The notes beneath the pieces were generated by a model. That model saw nothing but the letters and a program-made list of their open reading frames with translations, made no database searches and was not told where the DNA came from. A DNA stretch of 48,785 nt from Polyangium sp. 15x6. Lineage in GTDB: Bacteria > Myxococcota_A > Polyangia > Polyangiales > Polyangiaceae. Numbering within the stretch: position 1 is the first letter of the stretch; each line of letters opens with the position of its first letter. A program made the position numbers and the translations under genes. Positions 28,720 to 48,785 of the stretch are shown in pieces. Where the stretch lies: assembly GCF_029960785.1 (NCBI RefSeq), contig NZ_JASBQE010000091.1, positions 1-48,785 on the forward strand, read 5' to 3'.

Positions 28720-30345
28720 ATGGATCATCGCAACGAGAAGAAGCCGGCACTCGACTCGAACAACCCGTTCGTCGCCAAGGCGCCCGTGGATCTTTTCGGC
28801 GCGACCCAGGCGCGCCCCTTCGATCCCCGCGCTCTCTTCGCCGACAAGGCGAGCGAGCCCGAGACCGTGGCTGCTGACGCGCCCGAGGGTTCGTACACGT
28901 ACGCGCTCCTCAAGAGCGGCCCCGAGGTCCCGGCCGAGGAGTGCGAGCGCGCGGACGAGGCGATCGAGATCATGATCCTCTGGGGCGACTCGATCCTCCA
29001 CGTCGCGCACCTCTCGCCGGTTCGTCCGTTCCACGTCGGCGAGGAGAACGCGGACTTCGTGATCCCGGCCGGCACGCTCGGCGCTTCGCGGCTCCCGGTC
29101 GTGCTCGTGGGCGCGGATGGCAAGGCGCGCGTGGTGGTGCCTGCGACGGCGAAGGCCTCGATCGAGACCGAGGGCCGGCGCGCGTTGGTCGACGCGACGA
29201 ACGCGATGCCGTGTGCGGAGCTCGCGGGCAGCGTCGAGGTCGCGCTCTCGCTCGGCGCGCGGGTGAAGGTGGAGATCGGCGGGCTCACGATGCAGGTCGC
29301 GAGCGTGAAGGCGGGCCGCAAGGTCAAGGGCGGCGCGGTGGCGATGCAGGGCAAGGGTCTTTCCTGGCACGGCGTCTCCCTCGCGGTGCACGCGGGTTTG
29401 CTCGCGGCGGCCGCGTTCTTCCTCCCGCCCCTCGGCGTGACGGACGAGGGCGAGATCTCGGACGAGGACCGGTACTTCATTCAGCACGCGCTCGACGTGA
29501 ACGCGGAGCGCGACGAGGAGAAGAAGGAGACGCCCGAGCTCGCCGAGAACACCGAGAAGGCCCCCGGCGGCAGCTCCGGCGCGCGTGCGCAGGACAGCGA
29601 GGGCAAGATGGGCAGCACGACGAGCCGGAAGAGCGACGGTCGGTTTGCGCTCGCCGGGGACAAGAACAACACGGACCCGCAGATCGCGCGGCACGCCGCG
29701 GTCGACGAGGCGCGCAACTTCGGCATGATCGGGCTGCTCAACGTGATGAACGGCGGCGACCCGAACGCCGTCACGGCGAAGTGGGGCGGCGACACCTCGT
29801 TCGGCAGCGACGATCGGAGCGCCCTCGGTAACATGTGGGGCTCGTCGATCGACGACGCCGCGGGTTCGGGTGGGCTCGGTCTGACGGCGAACGAGGAGGG
29901 TGGTGGTGGCAAGGGTGAGGGCATCGGGCTCGATCGCATCAACACGATCGGCGTGAACCTCGGCGGGCCTGGCGGCTTCAACCGTCAGCTCAAGCCGAAG
30001 GGCCACAAGACGAGCGCGCCGATCATGCGTCCGCAGGGCGTCTCGTCGAGTGGTCGTCTCCCGGCCGAGATCATCCAGCGGACCGTGCGGCAGAACTTCG
30101 GTCGCTTCCGGTTCTGCTACGAGCAGGGCCTGCGGACGAACCCGAACCTCCAGGGCCGCGTGGCCGTGCGGTTCGTGATCGGTCGCGACGGCAGCGTCTC
30201 GCAGGTGTCGAACGGCGGGTCGGATCTGCCCGACCAGAACGCGGTCTCCTGCGTGGTCCGCTCGTTCTACGGGATGAGCTTCCCGGCGCCGGAGGACGGG
30301 ATCGTCACCGTGACGTACCCGATCATGTTCCAGCCCGGCAGCTGA
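28720..30345 (+). CDS. AgmX/PglI C-terminal domain protein, copy 1
   Basis: 541 residues from the ATG at 28720, which has AGGAG upstream; an earlier ATG at 28690 is less likely. N-terminal domain with ILWGDSILHVAHLSPVRPFHVGEE, one membrane segment at about 217-236, a long Gly/Ser/Asp-rich periplasmic linker, and a C-terminal AgmX/PglI domain from residue 445 (GRLPAEIIQRTVRQNFGRFRFCYEQGL, NPNLQGRVAVRFVIG, CVVRSF). This end resembles TonB C-termini and the family occurs in myxobacterial gliding machinery, where it spans the periplasm. A paralogue with the same order of domains follows at 30763, separated by the 42-bp repeat array. Confidence 0.85.
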   Translation: MDHRNEKKPALDSNNPFVAKAPVDLFGATQARPFDPRALFADKASEPETVAADAPEGSYTYALLKSGPEVPAEECERADEAIEIMILWGDSILHVAHLSPVRPFHVGEENADFVIPAGTLGASRLPVVLVGADGKARVVVPATAKASIETEGRRALVDATNAMPCAELAGSVEVALSLGARVKVEIGGLTMQVASVKAGRKVKGGAVAMQGKGLSWHGVSLAVHAGLLAAAAFFLPPLGVTDEGEISDEDRYFIQHALDVNAERDEEKKETPELAENTEKAPGGSSGARAQDSEGKMGSTTSRKSDGRFALAGDKNNTDPQIARHAAVDEARNFGMIGLLNVMNGGDPNAVTAKWGGDTSFGSDDRSALGNMWGSSIDDAAGSGGLGLTANEEGGGGKGEGIGLDRINTIGVNLGGPGGFNRQLKPKGHKTSAPIMRPQGVSSSGRLPAEIIQRTVRQNFGRFRFCYEQGLRTNPNLQGRVAVRFVIGRDGSVSQVSNGGSDLPDQNAVSCVVRSFYGMSFPAPEDGIVTVTYPIMFQPGS

Positions 30346-30387
30346 TCCCGAACGAACTGCGGTGAACGGAGCGCCGGGGCCACCTCC

Positions 30388-30690
30388 CCCATGTGGAAGG
30401 TGGCCTCGGCGATTTCGTTTTGTGGGTGTCACGTGCGAGCGTCGTCAGCGCCGAGCGGCCGGGGCGCATGCCACGTGTGTCACTCGCCTTCGCCGAGCTG
30501 CCGGTGCGCGTGCCACGTGTGTCACTCGCCTTCACCGAGCTGCGGGGGCGAGTACCACGTGCGTCACTCGCCATCGCCGAGCTCCTCGGAGGATCTCCAC
30601 ACGTGGCAGGTGGGCGCGGAGGTCTCCGTCGTCGGGTGTCACGTGTGTGCACGCGCGTTCGAGGACGGGAGCGTCGTCGTGCACGTGTGG
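30388..30690. repeat. 42-bp periodic array centred on CACGTG
   Basis: CACGTG occurs at 30430, 30472, 30514, 30556, 30600, 30640 and 30682, and a variant CATGTG at 30390. Steps are 40, 42, 42, 42, 44, 40 and 42 bp. The three units at 30471, 30513 and 30555 are near-identical over about 30 bases (CCACGTGTGTCACTCGCCTT and GCCGAGCTGC); outer units are diverged but keep the palindrome. There are no spacers, so it is not a CRISPR. 42 bp is four helical turns, so all palindromes face the same side of the DNA. The same sequence also reads as an open frame with 14-residue repeats (see next entry). Confidence 0.85.
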
Positions 30691-30723
30691 GATCCGCTTC
30701 CCGCGGTGCCGGGCCTCATGTAG
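30391..30723 (+). CDS. possible 110-residue repeat peptide
   Basis: Low-confidence gene. The frame, identical to that of the preceding AgmX/PglI gene after its stop at 30343-30345, shows a 14-residue repeat with His at 14, 28, 42, 56, 70, 84 and 98, mostly as CHV; WKVASAISFCGCHV near the start matches WQVGAEVSVVGCHV later, with mostly conservative changes. This codon-phase retention, kept even where CACGTG shifts by 2 bp, is an argument for coding. Against: no ribosome binding site, no signal peptide and odd composition. Confidence 0.3.
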   Translation: MWKVASAISFCGCHVRASSAPSGRGACHVCHSPSPSCRCACHVCHSPSPSCGGEYHVRHSPSPSSSEDLHTWQVGAEVSVVGCHVCARAFEDGSVVVHVWDPLPAVPGLM

Positions 30724-30762
30724 CCTCTTGGAAGGTCCGGCTGGAACGATCGGGAGGGTGAC

Positions 30763-32019
30763 GTGGTCGGTGTGTCCGTGGCCTCCGATCCGCCGGTTCT
30801 GGGTGCAAGGGTGAGCGCAGCCTCGGCGCGCGCCGTCGACGTCATCGTGCGGTGGGGAGACGATTGCGTGCTCGCCGCCCGCGAGCTCTCGCCGCCGCGT
30901 CCGTTCTTCGTGGGCGAGGAAGAAGGCTGCGACGTCGTGTTGCCCGCGGAGATCACGGGGGCCTCGCGCGTGCCCGTGCTGCTCGCGCGCTGGGACGGCG
31001 ACGTGCGCGCCGTCGTGCCGAAGGGCGCGCGTGTCGTGTTCGACGGCGAGCGCAAACCGATGACGCCCGCGCGCGCCGTGGCGCGTGGCCTTGCGGAGAG
31101 CTCGCGCGCGTACCGCGACGCGGCGGAGATCCCGCTCGGGTCCGGCAGGACGATCGCCGTGCGCATGGGGCCGATCACGATCGAGATCACCGGCAGCGAA
31201 GGTGCTCCGCGCGCACCACGCGAGTCCGTGCTGGAGCGTCGCACCGGGCTCTCGCACCTCGCGTCGGTGCTGCTCCATCTGCTCGTCTTCGCGGCCCTTG
31301 CCTCGCGGTTCCGGCCCTTCGAGGACGACGACTTCGACGGCGTCACGGACGATCAGAAGTTCTTCATCCAGCAGATGCTCCGCCGCAGCGACGAGCGGGA
31401 GATGGAGGGGCTTTACGCCGACGAGATCGCGGGCCTCGAGTACAGAGCGCGGCGGCGGCAACGCAAGGACCGCGCGGAGATGGACCTCGAAGCGGCGTGG
31501 ATGCGCTCGCTCCAGGCCGCGGGCGAGCGCTGGAGCGCGGAAGAGTTCGCGCGCGCCCGCGCCGGTGAGCCCGAGGACGCCCACGACACCGGCTTGATCG
31601 GCCTGCTCTACGATCGCCCTCCGAAGCCGGCCCCGACCGCGGCGCCGGTTTCCTACAACGAATACTTGCAAGCCAAGGCGCGCGACGCGGCGACGCAGAC
31701 GCGCCCGGGCGCCATGGCTTTGAGCGGCCGGCTACCGCCGGAGGTGGTGCGCCGGATCATCCGGCAAAACTTCGGGCGCTTCCGGCTCTGTTACGAGAAC
31801 GGCCTGCGGAACAACCCGAACTTGCAGGGGCGCGTCGCCGTGCGGTTCGTGATCGGCGCCGACGGCGCGGTGTCGAACGTCGGCAACGGCGGGTCGGACA
31901 TGCCCGACGGCGGCGTCGTGTCATGCATCGTGCGCTCCTTCCAAGGCCTGAGCTTTCCGAGGCCCGAGGGCGGGATCGTGACGGTGGTCTACCCCATCAT
32001 GTTCTCGCCGGGCGGATGA
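30763..32019 (+). CDS. AgmX/PglI C-terminal domain protein, copy 2
   Basis: 418 residues from a GTG preceded by GGGAGGG. Same order as copy 1: N-terminal VRWGDDCVLAARELSPPRPFFVGEE, a membrane segment at about 163-181, a shorter linker, and the C-terminal domain from residue 322 with GRLPPEVVRRIIRQNFGRFRLCYENGL and NPNLQGRVAVRFVIG, nearly identical to copy 1. The linker is charged (Glu/Arg) instead of Gly-rich. It is clearly a diverged duplication of copy 1. Probably spans the periplasm as part of an energy-coupled envelope machine; the partner is not visible. Confidence 0.85.
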   Translation: MVGVSVASDPPVLGARVSAASARAVDVIVRWGDDCVLAARELSPPRPFFVGEEEGCDVVLPAEITGASRVPVLLARWDGDVRAVVPKGARVVFDGERKPMTPARAVARGLAESSRAYRDAAEIPLGSGRTIAVRMGPITIEITGSEGAPRAPRESVLERRTGLSHLASVLLHLLVFAALASRFRPFEDDDFDGVTDDQKFFIQQMLRRSDEREMEGLYADEIAGLEYRARRRQRKDRAEMDLEAAWMRSLQAAGERWSAEEFARARAGEPEDAHDTGLIGLLYDRPPKPAPTAAPVSYNEYLQAKARDAATQTRPGAMALSGRLPPEVVRRIIRQNFGRFRLCYENGLRNNPNLQGRVAVRFVIGADGAVSNVGNGGSDMPDGGVVSCIVRSFQGLSFPRPEGGIVTVVYPIMFSPGG

Positions 32020-40975: not shown

Positions 40976-43900
40976 ATGTCGAAATTCAAGGGCTTCCTCG
41001 CCGTCCTTGCGGCGCTTTGCGTCTTCGTGTTCGCAGGGCGCGCGGAGGCGACCCATTTCCGCTACGGCAACGTCACGTGGAGCGTCCCCGATCCGGTATC
41101 GGCCCCACGCACCGTGCGCTTCGAGGTCACGATGGCGTGGCACGTCGAGTCGTTCATCGGGTCGACGACCCTCTACTTCGGTGACGGCGGGTTCAACCCG
41201 AATACGCAGGGTAACTTCGTGGGCTCGGGCTACGACGCGTCCGGCGACGAGTACCACTTCTATCGCTACGCCGCGACGCACACGTACAACGCGCCCGGGC
41301 AGTACACGGCGTACTTCAGCGACTGCTGCCGCATCTCCGAGCTGCTCAACGCGCACGACGAGTACTTCCGCGTCGAGGCCAAGGTCGACCTCACGCCCGG
41401 CAACACCGGCAACCCTGTCTCGGTCGTCCCCGCGATGATCCAGATGCAGGTGAACGGGATCCGGACCATCCAGATCCCCGCCGTCGACCCCGACGGGGCG
41501 CCGGTCACCTGTCGCTTCTCGACCATCCCCGAGGCGATCCCGAACCCCACCTATGCGACGACGCACCATCCGCCCAAGATCGCGTCGACCCAGGCGGCCC
41601 CGACGCTCGCGGTGAGCAGCTCCCCCCCGGGCTGCACGCTCACCTGGGACACGAACGGCGGCGTGGCCGGATCGAGGTACGCGGTCCAGGTGATGCTGGA
41701 GTCGCAGAATCCGAACAACGGCAACATCAGCAGCGCCGCGCTCGACTTCATCATCGAGCTCGTGCAGTCGCCGATCCCCACGTGCACGGGCACCGGCGAC
41801 TACGTCGTCGACATGGGGCAGACGTTCAACACGAGCTTCACGGGCACGTCGAACTCGTTCCTCAAGATGACGTCGATCGGCTCGTTCGGCGTCCTGAACC
41901 CGATCCCCGGCACGACCAAGCCGAGCCCCTTCACGACGAACCTCACCTGGTCGCCGGGCCTCGGCGAGGAAGGCACGCGCGTCCTCGCGGTCATCTACAC
42001 GAACCAGCTCAACGTCAGCGGCTACTGTACGCTCACCGTCACGGTGCCCGAGTGCGCCGTGTACGGCACACCCTGCTCGACCGGCATCGGCGCCTGTCAG
42101 GGTACGGGCATCGAGCAGTGCGTCGGGCCGAACGTCGAATGCACCGCCGTGGCGAAGGATCCGATGCCCGAGATCTGCAACGGCATCGACGATGATTGCA
42201 ACGGCACGAACGACGACAACAACCCCGAGGCCGGCACGGTCTGCCCGACGAACCTTCCCCCGGTCTGCGGCACGGGTCTGACGAACTGCAACGCCGGCGT
42301 GCTCGAGTGCATCCCCGACGTCGCGCCCGGCAGCATCGCCGAGACCTGCAACGCGGTCGACGACGATTGCGACGGCACGACCGACGAGGGCTTCAACCTC
42401 GGCACGGCGTGCATCGTGGGCAACGGCGTGTGCGAGGCGGCCGGCAAGCTCATCTGCGACGCGGCGGGCGGCACGATGTGCGACGCCGTCCCCAGCGTCC
42501 CCATGACGGAGGCGTGCGACGGCGCGGACAACGACTGCGACGGCGTGGCCGACGAGGACTTCGGGCTCGGCGATGCCTGCACGAACGGCCTCGGCGAGTG
42601 CACGGCGAGCGGCGTGAAGGTCTGCGATGCCATGGGCGGCGTGACCTGCACCGCGGTGCCCGGCGCGCCGGTGTTCGAGGTCTGCGGCGACGGCAAGGAC
42701 AACGACTGCGACGACGTGATCGACAACGGCTGCGGCGATCAGGACGGCGACGGTCTGCACGACGGCCTCGAAGAGGAAGTCGGCACGAACCCGGACGACG
42801 CAGACAGCGATGACGACGGCGTGATCGACAGCGAGGAGCCGCTCTGGGACGAGGACTCCGACGGCGACGGGCTCATCAACGCGCTCGACCCCGACAGCGA
42901 CGACGACGGCCTGTTCGACGGCACCGAGCTCGGCAAGGACTGCAACGACCCCGCGACGGAGGAGCAGTTCGGTCACTGCCGCGCCGACGGCGACTCGGGT
43001 CAGACGGGGACCGATCCGCTGAACCCCGACAGCGACGGCGACGGCAAGAGCGACGGCTCGGAGGACCCGAACCTGAACGGCGTCGTCGACATGAACGAGG
43101 GCAACCCCGAGAACCCCGGCGACGCGAACCTGACGAAGGACTTCGACGGCGACGGTCTCGGCGACGAGCTGGAGAAGGCGCTCGGCACGAACGAGAAGGA
43201 CGCGGACTCGGATGACGACGGCCTGCTCGACGGCGACGAGTCGAACCCGAGCGACGACACGGACGGCGACGGGATCGTCAACGTGCGTGACGTCGACAGC
43301 GACAACGACGCGCTCTTCGACGGCACCGAGGCGGGCAAGGGCTGCCAGCACCCGGCGACGAACGCCATGGCCGGTCATTGCCGCGCCGACGGCGATCTCG
43401 GCGGCACGAAGACCTCGCCCGTCTCACGCGACACCGACGGCGGCGGCGTGAGCGACGGCGCCGAGGACGGGAACCTGAACGGCGTGGTCAACGCGGGCGA
43501 GCTCGACCCGAGGGCCGGGTCCGACGACGCGGACGTGATCGACGCCGACGGCGACGGCCTGAGCGACGCGCTGGAGAAGGCGCTCGGCACGGGCGTGAAC
43601 GACGCGGACTCGGACGACGACGGCCTGCTCGACGGCGCCGAGCCGAACCCGAGCGACGACACCGACGGCGACGGCGGCATCAACCTGAAGGACGCCGACG
43701 CCGACAACGACGGCCTCGCGGACGGCACGGAGGCGGGCCGCTCGTGCGACGGCGAGGGGACGGACCCGGCCGCGCAGAAGTGCATTGCGGACGCGGACAA
43801 CGGCGCGACGAAGACGTTCGTGCTCGTCGCGGACACGGACGGCGGGTCGAAGCTCGACGGCGCCGAGGACGCGAACCTGAACGGCGTGATCGACCCGGGC

Positions 43901-44245
43901 GAGACGAACCCGCTCTTCGCCGGCGACGACCTCACGCAGCCCGAGTGCACGACGGACGCCGACTGCGGCGACGCGTCGAGCGGCAAGATCTGCCAGGATC
44001 AGCGCTGCGTCGCCGGCTGCCGCGGCGTGGACGGCAACGGCTGCCCCGACGGTCAGGTGTGCACGTCGACGTCGGGCTCGGCGGGCCAGTGCCAAGCCGA
44101 GCCGCCGCCGGACACCCAGCCCGAGCCGACGACTCCCGAGGGGTGCGGCTGCCGCACCGCGCCAGCGCAGGGCGGCGCGCTGCCCCTCACGCTCACGCTC
44201 GTCGCGGGCCTCCTCTTCGCGACGCGCCGCCGCCGCGCGGCCTGA
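40976..44245 (+). CDS. MYXO-CTERM surface protein with MopE-type and TSP3 repeats
   Basis: 1089 residues from the ATG at 40976, preceded by GGAGGACC. Sec signal peptide (cleavage after residue 25, AEA). Residues 26-380 form an Ig-like, PKD-type N-terminal part (THFRYGNVTW, YFGDGG). Residues about 395-585 hold four metal-binding MopE-type motifs such as ICNGIDDDCNG. Residues about 588-980 are Asp-rich thrombospondin type 3 calcium repeats in modules, with a 402-bp internal repeat (43172 and 43574). The C-terminus has cysteine pairs and a MYXO-CTERM tail: GCGCRTAP, a hydrophobic helix, and five Arg/Ala. It should be exported and anchored to the cell surface. Confidence 0.88.
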   Translation: MSKFKGFLAVLAALCVFVFAGRAEATHFRYGNVTWSVPDPVSAPRTVRFEVTMAWHVESFIGSTTLYFGDGGFNPNTQGNFVGSGYDASGDEYHFYRYAATHTYNAPGQYTAYFSDCCRISELLNAHDEYFRVEAKVDLTPGNTGNPVSVVPAMIQMQVNGIRTIQIPAVDPDGAPVTCRFSTIPEAIPNPTYATTHHPPKIASTQAAPTLAVSSSPPGCTLTWDTNGGVAGSRYAVQVMLESQNPNNGNISSAALDFIIELVQSPIPTCTGTGDYVVDMGQTFNTSFTGTSNSFLKMTSIGSFGVLNPIPGTTKPSPFTTNLTWSPGLGEEGTRVLAVIYTNQLNVSGYCTLTVTVPECAVYGTPCSTGIGACQGTGIEQCVGPNVECTAVAKDPMPEICNGIDDDCNGTNDDNNPEAGTVCPTNLPPVCGTGLTNCNAGVLECIPDVAPGSIAETCNAVDDDCDGTTDEGFNLGTACIVGNGVCEAAGKLICDAAGGTMCDAVPSVPMTEACDGADNDCDGVADEDFGLGDACTNGLGECTASGVKVCDAMGGVTCTAVPGAPVFEVCGDGKDNDCDDVIDNGCGDQDGDGLHDGLEEEVGTNPDDADSDDDGVIDSEEPLWDEDSDGDGLINALDPDSDDDGLFDGTELGKDCNDPATEEQFGHCRADGDSGQTGTDPLNPDSDGDGKSDGSEDPNLNGVVDMNEGNPENPGDANLTKDFDGDGLGDELEKALGTNEKDADSDDDGLLDGDESNPSDDTDGDGIVNVRDVDSDNDALFDGTEAGKGCQHPATNAMAGHCRADGDLGGTKTSPVSRDTDGGGVSDGAEDGNLNGVVNAGELDPRAGSDDADVIDADGDGLSDALEKALGTGVNDADSDDDGLLDGAEPNPSDDTDGDGGINLKDADADNDGLADGTEAGRSCDGEGTDPAAQKCIADADNGATKTFVLVADTDGGSKLDGAEDANLNGVIDPGETNPLFAGDDLTQPECTTDADCGDASSGKICQDQRCVAGCRGVDGNGCPDGQVCTSTSGSAGQCQAEPPPDTQPEPTTPEGCGCRTAPAQGGALPLTLTLVAGLLFATRRRRAA

Positions 44246-48625: not shown

Positions 48626-48785
<160 letters not shown>

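Follow-up and report, generated by a model that had tools for sequence, protein, structure and literature searches.

The question raised by this locus is what a row of evenly spaced CACGTG palindromes is doing in the gap between two AgmX/PglI-like genes of Polyangium sp. 15x6. The window (the whole stretch of DNA that was analysed, 48,785 nucleotides) is contig C266 of the source genome (G000, 13.4 Mb), and it was compared with five sister Polyangium genomes (G001-G005). A first, sequence-only reading had placed seven exact CACGTG sites and one CATGTG variant, at steps of 40-44 bp, between two AgmX/PglI paralogues. Both parts of this description were borne out: the two flanking proteins match NF033768 (Table 1), with the upstream protein scoring under the cut-off of the GltG model NF033760, and exact CACGTG starts at 30430, 30472, 30514, 30556, 30600, 30640, and 30682 (steps of 42, 42, 42, 44, 40, and 42 bp), with CATGTG at 30390.

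The regular unit is CAC-RY-GTG, mostly lying within TGNCAC-RY-GTGNCA, and eight sites of this consensus occupy 30385-30692 with their centres on an exact 42-bp grid. The CACGTG hexamer shifts by 2 bp (the 40- and 44-bp steps) because some sites have GT at their centre and others AC; the regular spacing first ascribed to CACGTG therefore stands, but it is the dyad centre, rather than the hexamer, that holds the grid. The raw chain in the window had ten positions, the last two of which (scores -1.0 and 2.0) were dropped. Tandem Repeats Finder reported a 42-bp array at 30449-30583 (3.2 copies, 88% matches), so that the three central units, previously called nearly identical, are indeed near copies. 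Elsewhere the window carries a 43-bp tandem repeat at its start (1-143), a 402-bp repeat (42780-43930), and a CCG tract at its end (48699-48785).

Table 1. Features of the array region, in window coordinates
Feature	Coordinates	Strand	Basis or remark
Upstream gene, AgmX/PglI C-terminal domain protein, GltG-like, 541 aa	28720..30345	+	ORF; NF033768 E 1.3e-24
Terminator-like stem-loop, then T-rich DNA (GATTTCGTTTTG)	30372..30411	+	RNA fold -33.7 kcal/mol
Site 1, TCCCCCATGTGGAA	30385..30398		Lattice layout; forms stem-loop tip
Site 2, TGTCACGTGCGAGC	30427..30440		Lattice layout
Midpoint GNNC between sites 2 and 3, GAGC	30453..30456		Read from lattice layout and column counts
Site 3, TGCCACGTGTGTCA	30469..30482		Lattice layout
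Site 4, TGCCACGTGTGTCA	30511..30524		Lattice layout
Site 5, TACCACGTGCGTCA	30553..30566		Lattice layout
Site 6, CTCCACACGTGGCA	30595..30608		Lattice layout; AC centre, hexamer off by 2 bp, dyad on grid
Site 7, TGTCACGTGTGTGC	30637..30650		Lattice layout
Site 8, GTGCACGTGTGGGA	30679..30692		Lattice layout
Further midpoints	30495-30498, 30537-30540, 30579-30582 (GAGC), 30621-30624 (GGTC), 30663-30666 (GGAC)		Lattice layout
Downstream gene, second AgmX/PglI C-terminal domain protein, 418 aa	30763..32019	+	ORF; NF033768 E 6e-25

The lattice was scored as a chain of 14-bp inverted-repeat sites at 41-44 bp steps, with CAC/GTG letters rewarded. The window scored 39.8, a value inflated by the three near-copy central units, against a maximum of 10.8 in 200 first-order Markov sequences, and the G002 orthologue, with more diverged spacers (mean pairwise identity 0.42 vs 0.31 shuffled), scored 31.9 against a null maximum of 9.8. 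Since the entire window is rich in CACGTG (33 sites vs 12 expected), the signal is the regular spacing rather than the number of sites. The observation of a phased array is confirmed.

The spacing is also kept in close relatives, so the refuting outcome named in the first reading, its loss in such genomes, did not occur: seven or eight sites at 42-44 bp steps were found in the same agmX-like intergenic gap of four of the five sister species (G002-G005). The remaining lattice scores were 38.4 (G004), 31.0 (G005), and 25.0 (G003), with null maxima of 8.9-10.9 across genomes (200 Markov sequences for each). The raw chains of the five orthologous arrays had 8-10 positions; an end cut-off of 2.5 gave eight sites in all five, and a cut-off of 3.0 gave seven in G003 and G005. 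In G001 the agmX-like genes are separated by other DNA with no array there, and a genome-wide search of G001 returned nothing convincing (best E 0.007); the array is therefore not essential to the genus. By eye, the G001 DNA that takes the array's place between these genes (C6:614000-617200; L117 / L124) reads like an ATPase gene.

Across a 12-kb stretch the window shares 92.65% identity with G004; within the array the CAC/GTG core is 0.92 identical and the spacers 0.62. Core identity exceeded spacer identity in nine of ten species pairs (spacers 0.40-0.65 and core 0.75-0.85 in the eight besides window/G004), an excess that arises partly by construction because the lattice finder rewards CAC/GTG, and the order was reversed only in the close relatives G003/G005 (spacers 0.96, core 0.92). 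The outer arms (TGN/NCA) of the array at this gap, called array A, were no better conserved than the spacers (0.38-0.54 in the nine pairs other than G003/G005), and its centre was 0.50-0.75 identical between species. Many half-sites of G002, G003, and G005 read TGNGAC, which may reflect either altered specificity or decay. Because four of five sister species retain this arrangement although much of the DNA that separates the copies differs, the array probably carries a row of a DNA-binding protein.

The same DNA had been noted as an open His-Val frame, and a repeat peptide was one of the explanations offered for it. In the window this frame is open for 110 aa in 14-residue His-Val/Cys units, the His codons stay in phase when CACGTG moves, and the frame is free of stops in G003 and G005 as well. 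The openness of the frame and the phasing of His thus hold for the window, but the frame has eight stops in G004 and two in G002, and no one of the six frames is open throughout all five orthologues; for this reason the peptide idea fails and was rejected. Moreover, the 43-bp steps of G003/G005 shift the codon phase and break the repeat, the TGN positions alternate among Cys, Trp, and stop codons, and no Pfam match was obtained at E 1. A translated repeat is accordingly regarded as extremely improbable.

Arrays of the same kind were sought with R1, a 98-column sequence-only model of three units, alongside pattern searches. Over 183 genomes of the order, R1 gave strong matches in five genomes (G000 and G002-G005), and the single weak matches in nine other genomes of the order (best E 1.5e-5) were treated as chance. 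Measured arrays numbered seven in G000 (window included), four in G004, three in G002, and two each in G003 and G005. These 18 arrays contain 143 sites, and their 125 steps, weak end positions having been trimmed by hand, are 42 bp (100), 43 bp (22), 44 bp (2), and 41 bp (1), so that 122 of 125 are 42 or 43 bp where the finder permitted 41-44. Site counts were repeated with fixed cut-offs. At an end cut-off of 3.0, eight sites were counted in 12 of 18 arrays, seven in five, and three in L157, whose core identity is just 0.47; at 2.5, two group-C arrays reach nine because a weak final site (GGACACGCGGG) is counted, and two group-D arrays extend into weak positions, to twelve. The number of sites thus depends on the cut-off and is not fixed, and it varies among related arrays, the partial arrays L155 and L158 retaining about four. 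Left out of the 18-array counts were C256 (L030) and C275 (L032), which are differently built or near-exact repeats, the 43-bp CACGTGCTCGTGCCC repeats L033 and L034, the partial arrays L155 and L158, the homogenised G002 array L160, C202 (L035), and L161-L163, in which the finder placed no array.

By position and flank the arrays fall into four groups: A lies at the agmX-like genes, B at a glycosyl hydrolase family 77 / protein kinase flank, C beside a STAS-PAS protein, and D, of which G000 holds three additional copies, on a LysR side. A rearrangement in G002 has its breakpoint at an array: the flank of array C leads, via a degenerate array, into DNA that matches the non-LysR flank of array D (L157 in G002:C146; L158 in G002:C98), and the STAS side of array C lies on a separate contig. 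A repeat of about 110 bp that contains strong inverted repeats is dispersed over many places and flanks some arrays on both sides (L027 3957-4102 and 4452-4562; also L030, L031, L033, L034, L092, and L093). Close to this repeat, and distinct from the array family, L033 (G000:C22:175627) and L034 (G000:C239:5682) are near-exact 43-bp tandem repeats with CACGTGCTCGTGCCC and seven CACGTG copies each.

Letter counts over the 143 sites separate the two sides of the CpG steps. On the centre side transitions are common (position 7, G84/A49; position 8, C73/T68), whereas on the CAC/GTG side they are rare (position 6, C127/T12; position 9, G130/A6). This contrast, which like the core conservation is in part built in by a finder that rewards those letters, suggests that CAC and GTG are under selection. 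Of the 143 sites, 131 have an RY centre (GT 54, AC 41, GC 29, AT 7), and AT is rarer than the approximately 23 predicted from the columns.

A second conserved element lies at the midpoint between adjacent dyads, where most spacers read GNNC. Among 100 spacers of 28 bp (21, 23, 24, and 32 in groups A-D), G stands in column 27 in 100, 96, 83, and 88% of cases, and C in column 30 in 86, 100, 100, and 100%, respectively. The two columns are symmetric about the midpoint and two helical turns from each dyad. The spacers are C-rich, and in group B other columns are equally high (column 42, C 1.00; column 26, C 0.96). The midpoint columns were unused by the lattice score and the pattern searches but are part of R1, with which L154, L156, L157, and L159 were found. 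In the window, the midpoint between sites 1 and 2 reads GATT.

How far do these regularities reflect common descent? Spacers of equal rank were more alike among groups B, C, and D (0.54-0.58) than spacers of shifted rank (0.27-0.54) in three of four comparisons, the fourth showing no excess (0.46 vs up to 0.46). These three groups therefore probably descend from one array, and their agreement is not independent; group A showed no such likeness to the others. Within one array, spacers were 0.37-0.66 identical against 0.31-0.41 when shuffled, so tandem copying contributes. An ordinary 42-bp tandem repeat that duplicates and decays without function would account for the near-identical central units of the window, the homogenised units of G004 (spacer identity 0.66), the dispersal of the arrays, some with common flanking repeats, the variable number of sites with partial arrays, and the presence of near-exact 42- and 43-bp repeats elsewhere in the genome (C275, C22, and C239). 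It would not lead one to expect that the 42-43 bp spacing holds across species while most spacers diverge, that the midpoint GNNC is kept in four array groups, or that the two sides of one CpG, centre and core, differ in how they evolve. A functionless repeat is for these reasons considered unlikely.

Matches outside the family were also inspected. The pattern search gave 32 forward matches against one for the control, including the near-exact C22, C239:5682, and C275 repeats. Forward matches in G001 and G018 proved to be short tandem repeats, that at C275:72798 in G000 did not belong to the array family, and strict-pattern matches in G018 and G107 were low-complexity repeats. A swapped motif, suggested by matches of the reverse-read control in G002, G003, and G005, was dismissed, the matches being unrelated near-exact tandem repeats with a 21-bp period (42-bp in G003:C137). 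A GTDB scan for CACRYGTG three times at 42 bp gave at least 113 matches, and many of those listed were lattices of CACRYGTG with a 21-bp step, in Amycolatopsis, Bacteroidota, and other groups; a crude gene caller put 66 of the 113 listed arrays inside a gene, a result that was distrusted. Among 20 genomes chosen for having such a match, the 21-bp pattern was present in 17 and the control in none. A sample of 296 Actinomycetota genomes gave a match in the seed genome alone (control 0), and these lattices were on that account not merged with the Polyangium element. Dispersed 21-bp lattices were seen in Amycolatopsis (L175, L176, L183, L184, L205, L226, L234, and L285), Saccharomonospora (L239), and Prauserella (L263), with 4-32 overlapping matches per genome against 0 for the control pattern and with the 13-bp spacer in places flipped between neighbouring units. 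Others were seen in Bacteroidota (L283, L188, L279, and L266) and Planctomycetaceae (L277), where the RY centre varies in most and the spacers have diverged in some.

The position of the arrays bears on what they may do. Judged from ORFs and a home-made gene caller, three of the seven G000 loci lie between tandem genes, four between convergent genes, and none between divergent genes, a zero that is not significant (0.75^7 = 0.13); the placement at C239, where the G000 contig ends, was judged from the G004 orthologue. In the window, site 1 is the tip of the stem-loop just past the stop codon of the upstream gene. The stem-loop and its T-rich DNA are kept in all five species (-37.6 to -47.1 kcal/mol in the four orthologues), and a simple terminator scan did not report the stem-loop.

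These features could also belong to an RNA-level 3' UTR element, in which transcribed self-complementary motifs would protect or tether the upstream mRNA. Four of the seven loci (A, B, C239, and C225) have the array beginning about 7-70 bp past a stop codon, site 1 of array A tops the conserved stem-loop, and the window RNA folds better than shuffled sequences (z -3.25). Compensatory change in the arms would be expected of RNA hairpins, yet arm pairs are complementary about as often as the columns predict (for the 3-12 pair, 38 against 37.4 expected), which makes such hairpins unlikely; the consensus fold is weak (-1.17 kcal/mol, with a single pair altered in both partners), RNA would not need a near-exact spacing of 42-43 bp, and array B runs in the opposite orientation to its upstream gene. 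An Rfam search of 30300-30800 gave no match at E 1. With Rfam, consensus fold, and arm pairing all negative, a structured RNA was set aside, and action at the RNA level is judged very unlikely.

The reading preferred here, with a probability of about 0.58, is that the array is a DNA-level platform for a predicted cooperative filament of dimers that serves as a boundary at gene 3' ends. Whole-turn spacing that is conserved between species agrees with the general class of phased cooperative protein-binding arrays. A putative dimeric protein would bind each inverted repeat, and about eight dimers could lie side by side over some 310 bp, on one face of the DNA because the sites are four helical turns apart. 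Such a row would have symmetry axes at the dyads and at the midpoints, and GNNC may be the meeting point of adjacent dimers or the DNA contact of a second domain. The array would then separate adjacent transcription units, by acting as a roadblock or by holding supercoils; a boundary is put forward as the most likely job because arrays stand at gene 3' ends and site 1 lies within the terminator-like hairpin of the upstream gene. The earlier proposal of a cooperative array fits this anatomy (lattice, core above spacers, and midpoint), but control of the second paralogue is unsupported, since related arrays follow unrelated genes and are frequently flanked by convergent ones. Among the flanking proteins tested, no gene family recurred between array groups, and no candidate binding protein was found among the proteins tested. 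The other earlier suggestion, a nucleoid or recombination site, may also apply: arrays have been partly lost, and one in G002 appears to have been re-joined to the flank of another.

A fuller version of the preferred platform reading is offered tentatively, and as a whole it is rather doubtful: a previously undescribed chromosome element, met only in Polyangium among the genomes sampled from the order, on which about eight dimers of a two-domain protein would cover some 310 bp, read both dyad and GNNC, and form a gene 3'-end boundary. The preferred half-site would shift together with the protein, from TGNCAC in G000/G004 towards more TGNGAC in G002/G003/G005. Few sequence-defined elements of bacterial chromosomes have the look of a scaffold as opposed to a lone operator. 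Phased dyads that hold their spacing and core through the turnover of most spacers give a handle on a DNA-binding protein that probably forms filaments, and the natural comparison is between the five species with arrays and G001, where none was found.

Several known systems resemble the arrays in part. Iterons and operator arrays are helically phased repeated binding sites; the Polyangium sites differ in being dyads, not direct repeats. Like CRISPR, the arrays have short, partly palindromic repeats with differing spacers between them, but the repeat is 14 bp and degenerate and the spacers are interrelated with conserved midpoint columns; no cas domain was present in the 17 flanking proteins scanned, and the arrays are not assigned to CRISPR. 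The REP/BIME elements of enterobacteria (for REPs see PMC3733652) are palindromic units at gene ends in several copies per genome, characterised by hairpin formation, high copy number, and a RAYT transposase. The placement of the arrays at 3' ends agrees with them, but REPs are palindromic repeats of 20-40 bp, whereas the arrays lack the compensatory arm change of hairpins and keep helical spacing. A plasmid or phage origin was rejected: blastn against plasmid and phage collections gave no match to the array, and an IMG/VR scan gave two tandem-repeat matches. No description of such an array was found in the open-access literature, as covered by the best-ranked titles and the opening parts of abstracts.

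The parS consensus is TGTTTCACGTGAAACA, and it shares with the arrays a CACGTG core and dyad symmetry. The arrays differ in their 2-bp RY centre, TGNCAC half-sites, and fixed phasing, whereas parS-like sites are few and scattered. With the pattern TGTTYCACGTGRAACA and up to one mismatch, 4-6 sites were found in each of the six genomes, four being clustered in four genomes, while in G000 and G003 three lay together and one on a different contig; none of them lay at an array, and identity with parS was ruled out. A related possibility is a sopC-like tether, that is, centromere-like or domain-organising sites at which a ParB-type protein would cluster loci or tether them to the nucleoid rather than affect local transcription. 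The occurrence of several arrays per genome and the core shared with parS agree with it. On the other side, no ParA/ParB (SopA/SopB) domain was found by Pfam in the 17 flanking proteins, four of which lie beside the excluded C256 and C275 repeats, and the parS-like sites are away from the arrays, as in G005 (two contigs), with measured arrays at 6.28 and 12.50 Mb and parS-like sites at 12.90 Mb. A tether is thus held to be quite improbable. The architecture nearest to the arrays is nonetheless that of F-plasmid sopC, a row of twelve tandem repeats of 43 bp in which ten inverted repeats of 16 bp are embedded (PMC6238139). The Polyangium arrays differ in being chromosomal and several per genome and in having another motif, diverged spacers, and a midpoint element, and they are not classed with sopC for want of partition genes among the 17 flanking proteins scanned. 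They have in common with sopC tandem units of about 43 bp (here 42-43 bp, about 8 against 12) most of which hold an inverted repeat (here 14 bp), and by analogy it is possible that they work like sopC.
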